Assembly (NCBI RefSeq): GCF_016863475.1
Contig: NZ_BOOY01000025.1
Coordinates: 1-64,000, forward strand
Direction: 5' to 3'
Source: Spirilliplanes yamanashiensis
GTDB lineage: Bacteria; Actinomycetota; Actinomycetes; Mycobacteriales; Micromonosporaceae
Length of the DNA stretch: 64,000 nt
The position numbers and the translations under genes were made by a program. Shown piece by piece: positions 8,498-11,962 of the stretch. Position 1 is the first letter of the stretch, and every line of letters begins with the position of its first letter. The notes beneath the pieces were generated by a model. It had not been told where the DNA came from. It made no database searches and worked only from the letters and a program-made list of their open reading frames with translations.

Positions 8498-8586
8498 ACC
8501 GTCACCGTAAGTGGCTCTAACGATCATGAGACGGGATTGCCGAAACTGCTCCCGTCGACCCCGTCGCGGAGCCGTCGCCGGACAGA

Positions 8587-8628
8587 CAGATGCACCGGTG
8601 CGGCCGCGCGGCCGCACCGGTGCATCTG
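8587..8628. terminator. 42-bp perfect palindrome, probable terminator
   Basis: The sequence from CAGATGCACCGG to CCGGTGCATCTG is a perfect 21+21 bp inverted repeat without loop bases, with a central GCGGCCGC-rich part. It sits 8 bp downstream of the stop of the DUF397 gene (8637, minus strand) and 89 bp before the next minus-strand gene. No clear T-run follows on the minus strand (TCTGTCCGG), as is common for actinobacterial terminators. TTTCG follows on the plus strand. Confidence 0.6.
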
Positions 8629-8636
8629 TTTCGCTG

Positions 8637-8837
8637 TCAGTTCTGGGTGAACGCCCCGGCCACGACTCCGGCGGTGAACGAACGCCATTCCTCGGTGGTG
8701 AATGCCAGCGGCTCGCGTTCCGGGTGCTTCGAATCGCGGACGAGCACGCGGTCACCGTCGAATGCGACCTCGACGCATGCCCCGTTCCCGCAGGCCGGGC
8801 TCCGTCGCCACACCAAACGGCCGGTTTCCGGGCTCAT
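8637..8837 (-). CDS. DUF397 protein
   Basis: 66 aa. It shows the DUF397 hallmarks: WRRSPACGNGACVEVAFDGD, VLVRDSKHPE, and a C-terminal LAFTTEEWRSFTAGVVAGAF. In Streptomyces, DUF397 proteins (Scr2 type) pair with Xre/DUF5753 regulators in toxin-antitoxin-like modules. Here it lies downstream of a second DUF397 gene and the DUF5753 regulator at 9219-10124, all on the minus strand. A GC-rich 106-bp spacer separates the two DUF397 genes. Confidence 0.9.
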   Translation of the reverse strand: MSPETGRLVWRRSPACGNGACVEVAFDGDRVLVRDSKHPEREPLAFTTEEWRSFTAGVVAGAFTQN

Positions 8838-9218: not shown

Positions 9219-10124
9219 TCAACGTTGTCGGGGCCGTGCGCTGGACGTGGTGGCCAGTTCCTTGCTCCTGGTGCGGATGAGCTCCAGGGAGTCCTCGTCG
9301 CTCAGGGCCATGTCCCAGAGCTGATCCAACTTGGCGCGGTGGCGCGCGATTCGCACCGGGTCCTCGACCACCTGGTCCATGGTCCAGTCCTCGGAGTACA
9401 GGACGGCGTGCGCGGGGTCGTCGTCGCCGGCCAGGTAGAACAGTTCGAACATGCCGAACGTCACCAGCGGGCCGTCGAAGTTGAGCGGGATGACCCGCGC
9501 GCGCACGCGGCGGCGTTCGATGAGCCGCACGATCTCGTCGAGCTGGCCGCGCAGCACGTCGGGCGGGCTGCCGATCGTGCGGTACAGCACGGACTCGTCG
9601 ATGAGGACGTTCATCCGGGCGGTGCTCTTGAGGAAGGCGTCGCGGCGGCGGATGCGCGCCTCCTGCCGGGCGTGGATCTCGTCCGGGGTCAGTTCCTCGC
9701 TGTAGTTGGCGAGGACGGCCTGGGCGTAGTCGAGCACCTGGAGGCGGCCGGGGACCATCGTGGGGTTGAACGCCCACGACACCTGCGCGGCGTTCTCCGC
9801 CTCGATCAGCTTGCCCATGGACGGCGTGATGCCGCGGAACTCGGGCTCGTGCCACCAGGGGGCGCGGCGCTCGCGGGCGGTGCGGGTGGCCCGGACGAGG
9901 TCGTCGACGACGGCGCGGTCGTCGACGCCGAGGTAGGCCAGCAGGGGCCGCAGGTCGTTGGGCGAGATGCTGACGTCGCCGTTCTCGATGCGGATCACCT
10001 TGGACAGTGACCACTCCATCGCCTCAGCGACGTCACCCTGGGTGTGGCCGAGCCGTTCGCGGGCTTCGCGTACGGCCTGCCGTACGCGACGCCGTGCTAC
10101 CAGCGGGCTCTCACCGGTGGGCAT
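9219..10124 (-). CDS. Xre-family regulator with DUF5753 (Scr1-like)
   Basis: 301 aa. Helix-turn-helix at about 15-70 (ARERLGHTQGDVAEAMEWSLSKVIRIENG), then the DUF5753 effector domain from about 105, with VPGRLQVLDYAQAVLANY and the conserved C-terminal SEDWTMDQVVEDPVRI. Members of this family act as transcriptional regulators or antitoxin-like partners of DUF397 proteins, two of which follow directly. A perfect 11-bp inverted repeat lies 47-88 bp upstream and is the likely autoregulatory site. Confidence 0.92.
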   Translation of the reverse strand: MPTGESPLVARRRVRQAVREARERLGHTQGDVAEAMEWSLSKVIRIENGDVSISPNDLRPLLAYLGVDDRAVVDDLVRATRTARERRAPWWHEPEFRGITPSMGKLIEAENAAQVSWAFNPTMVPGRLQVLDYAQAVLANYSEELTPDEIHARQEARIRRRDAFLKSTARMNVLIDESVLYRTIGSPPDVLRGQLDEIVRLIERRRVRARVIPLNFDGPLVTFGMFELFYLAGDDDPAHAVLYSEDWTMDQVVEDPVRIARHRAKLDQLWDMALSDEDSLELIRTRSKELATTSSARPRQR

Positions 10125-10170
10125 GATTCCTTCGTCGTTGAAGTCGGTGCGTGACGGGACCGTGGCTGGG

Positions 10171-10212
10171 GGCTACCTCGCAGTCTGCAACATAGCACCC
10201 GGCGAGGTAGCC
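10171..10212. promoter_or_regulatory. Inverted repeat with embedded promoter-like motif upstream of Xre gene
   Basis: Perfect 11-bp arms GGCTACCTCGC (10171-10181) and GCGAGGTAGCC (10202-10212) flank 20 bp. The spacer holds CTGCAA (10185-10190) which, with TAGCCT (10208-10213), forms a plus-strand promoter-like pair with a 17-nt gap. On the minus strand TATGTT in the spacer could be the -10 box of the Xre gene. The same motif precedes both DUF6232 genes. The repeats are seen; binding by the Xre protein is inferred. Confidence 0.6.
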
Positions 10213-10266: not shown

Positions 10267-10707
10267 TCAGTGTCCGGCGAGTTCGAACGGCGGCGGTGTC
10301 GGCGCCGCCGCCTCCAGCGCCCGCACCAGAGCCCTGGTGACCTGCCGGAACGTCTGACCGTCAGGATTCGTGTACAGGACGACATCGATGCCCCGGACGG
10401 TGGCGTGTAACTCCCACGAGGGACCCCGGCGGCGGCGCAGCGCGGCGGCGGTGACGCCGACGCCCACCGCCAGTGCCATCCCGGCGCTGAGCGCCACGGT
10501 CGAGCCGATCACCGGCCAGCTGGCGGCGGCGGCCGCCCCGGTGCCCAGCGCCACCGTCGGCCCGCCGGCGAAGCCGGGGGTGGTGGCGCGGACCATGCCG
10601 ACGGACGTCAGGTCGGCGATGCGGTGCAGGCGGGCCGGCGCCGGCCCGCGAACGATGAAGACCTCGTCGGTGATGAGGACGTCCCGGCTGCGGTAATAGG
10701 TGGTCAT
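10267..10707 (-). CDS. DUF6232 family protein (copy 1)
   Basis: 146 aa. N-terminal TTYYRSRDVLITDEVFIVRG followed by LHRIADLTSVGMVR, a central pair of hydrophobic helices (about 45-90), then a soluble end with VVLYTNPDGQTFRQVTRALVRALE. The same architecture occurs in the paralogue at 10953-11402, with TYYRS, YRIKHL-VGIVR and DGQVFRQVTRGLLRAME blocks. Function is unknown; it appears to be a small membrane protein with cytosolic ends. GAGGAGG precedes the ATG. A leader of about 200 nt with a strong hairpin separates promoter and start. Confidence 0.85.
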   Translation of the reverse strand: MTTYYRSRDVLITDEVFIVRGPAPARLHRIADLTSVGMVRATTPGFAGGPTVALGTGAAAAASWPVIGSTVALSAGMALAVGVGVTAAALRRRRGPSWELHATVRGIDVVLYTNPDGQTFRQVTRALVRALEAAAPTPPPFELAGH

Positions 10708-10795
10708 GGCTTTCCTCCTCGCGCCTTGCGGGGAGGGAGAGCGTGGGCCACAATCGGCCGTAGGAGCACGGCCTCACTCCCCGGAGTTGGAGGCG

Positions 10796-10827
10796 AATCG
10801 CCACCCGGTTGCCGCCGGGTGGCGATT
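10796..10827 (-). promoter_or_regulatory. Leader hairpin of DUF6232 copy 1
   Basis: Perfect 13-bp stem (AATCGCCACCCGG pairing with CCGGGTGGCGATT) around a 6-nt loop, TTGCCG on the plus strand. It lies 89-120 nt upstream of the start codon. A matching hairpin with the same loop precedes the second DUF6232 gene. Nearby conserved blocks (GAGCACGGCC, CACTCCCCGGAG) suggest a structured leader RNA. Confidence 0.55.
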
Positions 10828-10912
10828 TCTGTGTGCGGCCACTCGTGCCGCCGTGCCTCCAGTTGCCGCTGGAAATCCGACTGCACACAGTGGAACACGT
10901 CCACCATCCTGA

Positions 10913-10945
10913 TCGCTAGTTATCTAAGTGCCATGTTGCAGATTG
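10913..10945 (-). promoter_or_regulatory. Predicted promoter of DUF6232 copy 1
   Basis: Minus-strand CAATCTGCAACATGGCA (10929-10945) includes CTGCAA as a -35-like element, followed after exactly 17 nt by TAGCGA (10913-10918). The same arrangement occurs at 11568-11600 (minus) and 10181-10213 (plus). The core TGCAAC/ATGGCA is a near-dyad, so it could equally be an operator. It starts 8 bp after the stop of the upstream gene. Confidence 0.55.
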
Positions 10946-10952
10946 AAGGCTG

Positions 10953-11402
10953 TCAGCCGCCCGCCAGTTCGTACCAGGTGGACCCCGGCTCGGCGGCGGC
11001 CTCCATGGCGCGCAGCAGGCCCCGGGTCACCTGCCGGAACACCTGGCCGTCGGCGGAGGCGAACAGCACCACCCGGCGGTCGCCGTACGTGGCGCGCAGC
11101 TCGCAGACGCGGCGGTGGTCGCGGCCGGTGGTGAACGCGGCGGCGGTCAGGGCGGCCGCCAGGGTCAGCCCCGCGGCGACGGCGACCGGGGAGTGGATGA
11201 CCGGCCAGGTGGCGGTCGCCACGGCGCCGGTGGCCAGGGCGGCGGTGTGGGTGGCGGTCAGGCCGGCCGGGGCGGGCGCGCCCCGGACGATGCCGACGTC
11301 CCGCAGGTGCTTGATGCGGTAGACCCGGATGGGGTCGGTGCGCCAGACGAAGGCGTCGCTCGTGACGAGGACCTCGTGGCTGCGGTAGTAGGTGGTGGGC
11401 AC
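10953..11402 (-). CDS. DUF6232 family protein (copy 2)
   Basis: 149 aa from GTG at 11402, preceded by GGGAG 7 nt upstream. It begins PTTYYRSHEVLVTSDAFVWR, then VYRIKHLRDVGIVRG, two hydrophobic helices (about 50-95) and a C-terminal region with RRVVLFASADGQVFRQVTRG. It is a clear paralogue of the downstream gene, and the upstream leader is duplicated along with the gene. Function is unknown. Each copy has its own promoter-like motif, so they are probably separate transcription units under one control. Confidence 0.85.
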   Translation of the reverse strand: MPTTYYRSHEVLVTSDAFVWRTDPIRVYRIKHLRDVGIVRGAPAPAGLTATHTAALATGAVATATWPVIHSPVAVAAGLTLAAALTAAAFTTGRDHRRVCELRATYGDRRVVLFASADGQVFRQVTRGLLRAMEAAAEPGSTWYELAGG

Positions 11403-11469
11403 GGTTTCTCCCTTCCCGCGTCGGTGGGGAGGGGGAAGCGTGAGGAGCACGGCCCCACTCCCCGGAGAC

Positions 11470-11503
11470 GACATCGCCACCGGTTGCCGCCGGTGGCGAT
11501 GTC
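11470..11503 (-). promoter_or_regulatory. Leader hairpin of DUF6232 copy 2
   Basis: Perfect 14-bp stem (GACATCGCCACCGG with CCGGTGGCGATGTC) closing the same 6-nt loop as copy 1. Compared with copy 1, the stem loses one C:G pair near the loop and gains pairs at the base, always on both sides, so base pairing is preserved. It lies 68-101 nt upstream of the GTG. Confidence 0.55.
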
Positions 11504-11567
11504 GGTGTGACCTCTCTGAATCCGTGGGTTCCCGACTGCACTCAGTGCAGCACAGACACCTGCCCGA

Positions 11568-11600
11568 TCGCTACGTCTCCATCTGCCATATTGCAGATTG
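11568..11600 (-). promoter_or_regulatory. Predicted promoter of DUF6232 copy 2
   Basis: Minus-strand CAATCTGCAATATGGCA (11584-11600) with CTGCAA, then a 17-nt spacer and TAGCGA (11568-11573). This matches the motif of copy 1 at 16 of 17 positions and the same spacing. It lies between the DUF1304 stop (11612) and the leader hairpin. Confidence 0.55.
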
Positions 11601-11611
11601 CGGTGAAGCCG

Positions 11612-11962
11612 TCAGGTGAGCAGGACGGCGGCGAGCGCCACGGCGGCCGGCAGCGCCTGGACGACCAGGATGCGGCGGGAGGCGGTGGCCGCGCCGTACG
11701 CGCCGGCGACGACGACGCAGATCAGGAAGAACACCTGGAAGGCCGTGCTGCCGGTGGCCAGGCCGTAGATCAGGCCGGCGGCGAGGAAGCCGTTGTACAG
11801 GCCCTGGTTGGCGGCCAGCGCCGCGCTCTGCCGGGCGAACTCGGGCGTCGTGCCGAAGGCGGCCCGGCCGCGGGGCGTCTGCCAGAGGAACATCTCCAGC
11901 ACCAGGATGTAGACGTGGACGGCGGCGACCAGCCCGACCAGCACTCCCGCCAGCACGCTCAT
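11612..11962 (-). CDS. DUF1304 membrane protein
   Basis: 116 aa with four hydrophobic helices and little loop sequence. VAAVHVYILVLEMFLWQTPRG near residue 13 and the following ARQSAALAANQGLYNGFLAAGL are characteristic of DUF1304 (YqjF-like) proteins. It is an inner-membrane protein of unknown function. The gene is alone on the minus strand, between the GH16 gene and the DUF6232 pair, with spacers of about 60 and 10 bp. Confidence 0.9.
   Translation of the reverse strand: MSVLAGVLVGLVAAVHVYILVLEMFLWQTPRGRAAFGTTPEFARQSAALAANQGLYNGFLAAGLIYGLATGSTAFQVFFLICVVVAGAYGAATASRRILVVQALPAAVALAAVLLT

Follow-up and report, generated by a model that had tools for sequence, protein, structure and literature searches.

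Translational riboswitches are one sort of leader that sequesters the Shine-Dalgarno (SD) sequence. The leader described here, which precedes genes encoding DUF6232 proteins in the Micromonosporaceae, resembles such RNAs in that it is a 5′ leader with a conserved structured 5′ domain, followed by a C/U-rich strand able to hide the ribosome site and by an upstream strand able to compete for it. It differs in having no Rfam match, in being confined to its family at the sensitivity of our search with the final covariance model (R2), and in that the gene behind it does not belong to the known metabolic or transport genes. In outline, it also resembles the candidate structured RNAs found by comparative genomics (PMC2864571, PMC6429828), being a conserved intergenic RNA motif placed before one gene family, but the motif is absent from the copy of Rfam that was searched.

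The genetic neighbourhood has a counterpart in Streptomyces. According to the abstract of a study of Streptomyces coelicolor, pairs of XRE and DUF397 genes encode pleiotropic regulators, and such regulators are reported to affect both development and antibiotic production in Streptomyces (PMC10364602). As in the pairs outlined there, DUF397 genes come after a gene encoding an HTH/DUF5753 protein, next to the leader units; here, in contrast, one or two DUF6232 genes lie directly upstream, each equipped with an operator-like element and an RNA leader, and neither DUF6232 nor the leaders are mentioned in that abstract. A literature search by name found no paper on DUF6232, and the motif was not encountered in the portions of the literature on Actinoplanes riboswitches, transcription start-site maps and candidate structured RNAs that appeared among the matches listed.

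The leaders were recognized in a 64,000-nt stretch of DNA of Spirilliplanes yamanashiensis (the window), where they are read on the minus strand. Two DUF6232 genes are arranged there head to tail on this strand, with gene B (10953..11402; 149 aa, GTG start; Pfam PF19744, E 7.4e-15) as the upstream tandem copy and gene A (10267..10707; 146 aa; PF19744, E 6.8e-17) following it. A DUF1304 gene (11612-11962) precedes gene B. The conserved next gene, also on the minus strand (9219..10124), encodes an XRE-type regulator with Pfam domains HTH_31, HTH_3 and DUF5753, and downstream of it lies a conserved neighbour encoding a DUF397 protein (8637..8837, minus strand; PF04149, E 8.9e-18), so that a complete XRE-DUF397 pair is present; both assignments agree with synteny in related genomes. 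Directly behind the DUF397 gene there is a 22-pair hairpin (8584-8631; one wobble when read on the plus strand), which looks like an operon terminator. Covariance-model matches, start codon included, extend over 10705..10855 for leader A (R1, E 4.0e-18; R2, E 5.3e-14) and 11400..11529 for leader B (R1, E 7.0e-14; R2, E 2.5e-9), both on the minus strand; the two sequences were part of the training sets of both models. The lengths of 170-200 nt given for the leaders rest on an assumed start site. Three DUF6232 matches occur in the genome, which is the sole representative of its genus among the genomes compared, but a covariance search revealed only leaders A and B, even at E up to 1.

The initial annotation had reported hairpins with an identical loop in both leaders, differing by an inserted pair and by base changes matched on both sides of the stem, and this description is borne out. 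The hairpin of leader A, termed P1 (10796..10827, minus strand), has a perfect 13-bp stem, AATCGCCACCCGG-[CGGCAA]-CCGGGTGGCGATT, while that of leader B (11469..11504, minus strand) combines the same CGGCAA loop with a stem of 15 bp; the additional pairing and the base changes between them are compensated on both strands of the stem. Further conserved blocks, also noted in that annotation and shared by the two leaders, are CTCCGGGGAGTG and GGCCGTGCTC, located 3′ of the hairpin. Among 52 hairpins of the window with six-base loops and stems of at least 9 bp (22 on the minus and 30 on the plus strand), only those of leaders A and B have the CGGCAA loop, a plus-strand scan showing them as TTGCCG. 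The less specific loop C-N-G-N-N-A is found in three of the 52, two of them being leaders A and B. For comparison, 400 kb of an Actinoplanes-group genome (G118) contained 250 comparable hairpins, one with a CGGCNA loop and five with the wider C-N-G-N-N-A loop, all five with stems of 9-10 bp.

A very recent duplication with identical flanks, which could by itself have produced such a likeness, does not fit the age of the genes. Proteins A and B share 48% identity and form a lineage-specific duplicate pair in the tree (support 100/99), separate from the tandem duplicates of related genomes, which are older. Given this degree of divergence and the old lineage-specific duplication, the leaders have long diverged, yet the hairpin has been kept.

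Conservation of P1 was assessed on a gapless MAFFT alignment of 47 distinct sequences, in which 94.9% of the stem cells are paired. Changes on both sides of a pair were found in nine of the 12 pairs, amounting to 26 two-sided cells, compared with 4.0 in shuffled alignments (none of 500 shuffles reached this number), and the covariation score of 0.232 exceeded the 0.032-0.099 obtained for slid pairings. G-U cells (25) outnumber A-C cells (8) in the stem, as is expected if the mRNA strand folds. In the loop, positions 1 (C), 3 (G) and 6 (A) are invariant in all 47 sequences and the remaining positions vary. The paired percentages and the loop conservation lean upwards, because the leaders were collected with models containing P1 and the AAS-AS helix described below, and the stem search that positioned the P1 windows favoured loops that start with CGG or CTG. 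In a partner-swap test on disjoint segments, matched partners of the lower stem of P1 beat permuted ones (P = 0.0056). The stem is therefore conserved in homologues through compensatory changes, as the initial annotation had proposed should be examined with a covariance model, and we consider P1 to be established, from comparison of sequences, as a conserved hairpin with a C-N-G-N-N-A hexaloop. That the leader as a whole is a conserved structured RNA can be stated with high confidence.

No match to any of the 4,227 families of Rfam 15 was obtained in the window at the gathering score. With the threshold relaxed to E up to 10, only sub-gathering matches appeared, both in 10 loci and in the region 10650-11650 of the window; the best within the window leaders was ctRNA_pGA1 on the plus strand, which reached 27.2 bits where the gathering score is 45. 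The view that this is a cis-regulatory RNA of an unrecognized type thus gains support from covariation in homologues, from the association with DUF6232 and from the lack of an Rfam family, while the regulation itself, that is, whether the leader controls expression and how, is something we infer from sequence. Within a known kind of RNA, the leader forms a new family, and it very probably constitutes an undescribed control element of the DUF6232 gene.

The distribution of the leader was examined within the family and beyond it. A protein search of 300 genomes of the family identified close relatives of the DUF6232 proteins in 72, and the hairpin was found directly upstream of the gene in 27 of 29 newly fetched loci (it is missing in L036 and degenerate in L038). 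Model R1, built from 30 leaders, matched 94 of the 300 genomes and 13 of 44 genera (E up to 1e-3), a genus count that includes partial leaders; matches were opened in 11 of the 13 genera, all but g31 and g4. Leader and DUF6232 gene occur together in seven genera (g1, g29, g44, g43, g23, g33 and g25); in g22 and g26 P1 alone precedes a DUF6232-like gene, and the matches opened in g9 and g7 have no DUF6232 gene directly behind them. The full set of 83 matches went into model R2, including six rows that were dropped from the comparison of leaders (L033:935, L036, L038 and L116:2098, no start codon; L103, start outside the match; L121:4568, DUF6232 absent). Among 394 genomes of the class (E up to 1e-4) it matched only the genome of the window itself; as the strict filters used above 40 genomes may lose weak matches, restriction to the family holds at that sensitivity.

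The exact Actinoplanes form of P1 was present in 51 copies, in 48 contig stretches of a collection of species genomes, in Actinoplanes, Paractinoplanes, Winogradskya, Pseudosporangium and Virgisporangium, among others; since a single sequence served as query, this sample covers Actinoplanes and near relatives rather than the whole family. The element keeps a constant place upstream of one gene family. A DUF6232 gene follows within 330 nt in 43 of the 51 copies, and of the other eight, four have such a gene further downstream, two lie near the end of a stretch and two have none nearby. Of 72 intact ORFs downstream of leaders, 46 were aligned with the two window proteins, and all 48 match PF19744. 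The usual gene order is leader-DUF6232 (one or two units), XRE/DUF5753 and DUF397 (often two), with DUF1304 upstream of the leader unit in several loci, as in the window. Among 30 high-scoring loci with ordinary DUF6232 genes, no such leader was detected by eye or by a 260-nt hairpin scan; one of them, L023, has a P1-like hairpin alone. Searches for P1 in viral contigs and for the exact 3′-block pattern in genome contigs gave no matches.

The downstream gene was read for 33 of 40 weaker, second or other-genus matches, and in 17 it was DUF6232-like and directly adjacent. The other 16, with no DUF6232 gene directly downstream, include decayed leaders (e.g. L093, L094 and L101) and P1-like hairpins near other genes. 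L092 and L098 have genes for small membrane proteins there, L097 has a sigma-factor-like gene and L127 an XRE gene; these four hairpins have no evident 3′ domain, and they may share whatever binds P1. Apparently decayed copies, with P1 intact and no DUF6232 ORF directly behind it, occur at L033 935-1134, L036 2151-2350, L038 2186-2326 and L039 595-774, and likewise in L158, L161, L175 and the three loci first named above. The operator-like palindrome is present at the decayed copies of L033, L036, L038, L039, L158 and L161. L036 additionally contains an intact DUF6232 gene with no leader (at approximately 1380-1500 in gene orientation), at which the operator and a promoter-like block abut the ribosome site, making it a natural leaderless variant.

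Downstream of P1, two complementary strands were distinguished. The alternative-pairing strand AAS is the G-rich strand following P1, reading GCGAGGcGGGGAA in Actinoplanes, CGGGGAG in the window and GCGGAGGG in genus g44; the C/U-rich strand AS lies near the ribosome site. In leader A, AAS (CTCCGGGGAGTG) occupies 10775..10786, AS (CTCCCTCCCCGC; complementary to AAS or to the SD region) 10728..10739 and the SD sequence AGGAGG 10714..10719, whereas in leader B the corresponding elements are AAS (CTCCGGGGAGTG) at 11456..11467, AS (CTTCCCCCTCCCC) at 11426..11438 and the SD-like AGGGAG at 11408..11413, all on the minus strand. RNAalifold applied to 30 leaders proposed the AAS-AS helix unprompted; two-sided changes occur in 14 of all 20 pairs that the program predicted. 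On a model-fitted alignment, which leans towards structure, eight of the nine AAS-AS pairs show two-sided changes.

A set of 55 leaders was used for the remaining comparisons (60 non-redundant ones minus the decayed copies L058:2231 and L039:595 and minus L063:2346, L086:2056 and L120:2515). On its MAFFT alignment the AAS-AS helix is 86% paired, compared with 51-72% when the strands are slid, and has 17 two-sided cells against 8.7 in shuffles, one of 500 being as high; the covariation score, 0.204, gives it no advantage over slides of -1, -2 and -3 (0.221, 0.199 and 0.214). The predicted pairing of the SD sequence in the last 62 nt averages 0.68, against 0.41 with the stretch from P1 to the SD shuffled, and lies above the shuffle in 45 of the 55 leaders (P = 9.3e-7). 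Predicted SD-AS pairing exceeds 0.5 in 43 of 55 leaders, and AS-AAS pairing in 26 of 55. In the disjoint-segment partner-swap test, from which leader B was also omitted as too short, neither AAS-AS (permutation P = 0.12) nor AS-SD (P = 0.065) was significant. The cross-lineage version gave low values also for pairs not meant to pair (p5-AS, 0.005; AAS-SD, 0.004), and because these controls fail, the partner-swap test cannot carry the claim for either helix. The hairpin of L081, correctly placed in the P1 alignment, was misplaced in the partner-swap, AAS-AS, SD-pairing and upstream-start analyses. Comparison of the leaders thus lends moderate support to AAS-AS as a putative alternative helix, and the competing-helix part of the model is less well supported than P1. 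A chain of four successive pairings considered for the leader was dropped, since the disjoint-segment test supports only the lower stem of P1, and a small hairpin between AAS and AS found no support from covariation.

The initial annotation had suggested that GGGGAG near the hairpin could pair with CUCCCC near the ribosome site. This pairing is indeed part of the minimum-energy fold of both leaders taken to the start codon, but it disappears from leader A when 6 nt are removed from its 5′ end; a flank of P1 then pairs with AAS, and AS with the SD. Leader A can accordingly be folded both ways, with AAS-AS when it ends at the start codon and AS-SD when it is shortened in this manner or extended into the coding region. 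With 15 nt of coding sequence added, leader A has predicted values of 0.54-0.72 for AS-SD and at most 0.17 for AAS-AS (12 assumed 5′ ends), and leader B 0.68-0.77 for AAS-AS and at most 0.10 for AS-SD (seven assumed 5′ ends). The energy model allows both states in the window leaders, and the two are predicted to rest in opposite ones, A hiding its SD and B leaving it free.

We propose that the leader may act in cis to set DUF6232 translation through these states, with P1 as the receiving domain. In the off state, AS would pair with the SD region and hide the ribosome site; in the on state, AAS would pair with AS, draw it away and free the site. AAS-AS and AS-SD would then be alternative states, and P1 with its lower stem a putative sensor or binding site that chooses between them. 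We give this switch an even chance of being correct, a rating lowered by the opposite resting states predicted for A and B.

In an alternative reading, P1 is a protein-binding or mRNA stability element and the C/U-rich strand would do no more than tune basal translation, with no riboswitch-like switch. Invariance of loop positions 1, 3 and 6 in all 47 sequences, while the stem varies, is what a protein site would produce; covariation of the switch helices is just moderate, and the resting states of A and B are predicted to be opposite. Such a role leaves aside the pairing of the SD above the shuffled level and the recurrence of a complementary AAS strand, and we regard it as rather doubtful. 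A bolder version of the switch, in which the leader would represent a new riboswitch-like class of the Micromonosporaceae and P1 with its C-N-G-N-N-A loop would sense a small molecule or the signalling state of the DUF6232/XRE/DUF397 system to flip a translational switch in which two partners compete for one C/U-rich strand, is unlikely. One cassette would then be under double control, from an XRE operator and from RNA, and tandem copies could be set to opposite resting states.

A role of P1 in transcription attenuation, with polymerase stopping after the hairpin unless antiterminated and the 3′ domain being secondary, appears still less probable. A 5′-leader hairpin with a small loop and a strong, G+C-rich stem would suit it, and the gene-less decayed copies that retain P1 could make a short RNA, but those copies were found via P1, so their apparent extra conservation of the hairpin is biased. 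No U run follows P1: the 10 bases examined contain a mean of 4.0 T, two of which generally still belong to the stem. When the locus was scanned for terminators, P1 appeared only as a six-pair match on the plus strand, i.e. the wrong one, the P1 loop is rare among other strong hairpins of the related genome G118, and the domain near the ribosome site is left unexplained. An intrinsic terminator was also rejected as the main reading, as P1 has no U tract behind it and received no call on the mRNA strand.

Control by a translated upstream ORF, through leader-peptide attenuation or coupling, is highly improbable. Some start codon with an SD-like stretch and at least five codons can be found in 29 of 55 leaders, leaders A and B, like three g44 leaders, have a GTG right after AAS, and the translated 3′ domain is similar in some lineages. 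Against this, there is no codon-position bias (mean entropy of 1.06, 1.14 and 1.12 for positions 1-3), and the upstream ORFs do not hold to one frame with respect to the main start (the three frames account for 11, 23 and 17 of 51 anchored rows; four of 55 leaders had no anchor). In many Actinoplanes leaders an upstream start is missing at that place, or a stop is present, and the ORFs beginning near -84 lie in a promoter-like block that often reads GTA, not GTG. A leader-peptide attenuator was consequently rejected, no conserved short ORF with a coding signature having been found.

That P1 functions at the DNA level, its inverted repeat being bound by the XRE protein, is equally improbable: the XRE gene adjoins and a nearby second palindrome resembles an operator, but the loop is asymmetric and conserved, the stem changes in sequence with its pairing kept, G-U is tolerated above A-C, and the upstream palindrome is the better operator candidate.

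This palindrome, CAATCTGCAACATGGCAGATTG, is mostly placed 90-100 nt upstream of P1. Of the 52 leaders for which sufficient sequence upstream was available, 48 contain its core, which is absent from 400 kb of G118. In the window, operator-like elements precede leader A (CAATCTGCAACATGGCACTTAG, 10924..10945, minus strand; 3/22 mismatches) and leader B (CAATCTGCAATATGGCAGATGG, 11579..11600, minus strand; 2/22 mismatches), and a weaker one (10181..10202, plus strand; 6/22 mismatches) is situated between the XRE gene and the end of gene A. The palindrome suggests XRE control, with binding by the XRE protein presumed from its position, and the neighbouring XRE/DUF5753 protein, acting at this site, probably exerts a separate control over transcription. 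Upstream of the XRE gene, an inverted repeat (ggctacctcgc...gcgaggtagcc, 10163-10209) flanks the weaker element, as if a second hairpin or operator stood before the regulator itself.

The covariance models, the invariant loop and the natural variants, including the leaderless gene of L036, provide a testable RNA family. They also tie DUF6232, a protein family of unknown function, to XRE/DUF397 regulators, and knowing the signal sensed by P1 would lead directly towards the function of these proteins. A part in anti-phage defence was considered and rejected: a comparison of four proteins with PADLOC gave a single match, that of the XRE protein to an HTH model (E 2.6e-4).

An AlphaFold2 model based on 48 sequences shows strands around a helical pair (mean pLDDT 82.5, pTM 0.65; residues 41-70 poorly modelled). 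The best Foldseek matches are PH domains, all of them weak (best E 0.07, none at 0.001), and a PH-like fold is a lead only. The middle part of the protein is probably a membrane part. Seven short DUF6232 proteins of 90-98 aa (L102, L105, L106, L111, L122, L123 and L124), shorter by about 50 residues, probably have no middle helical pair. Because their genes keep the leader, its association with DUF6232 does not depend on this middle part.
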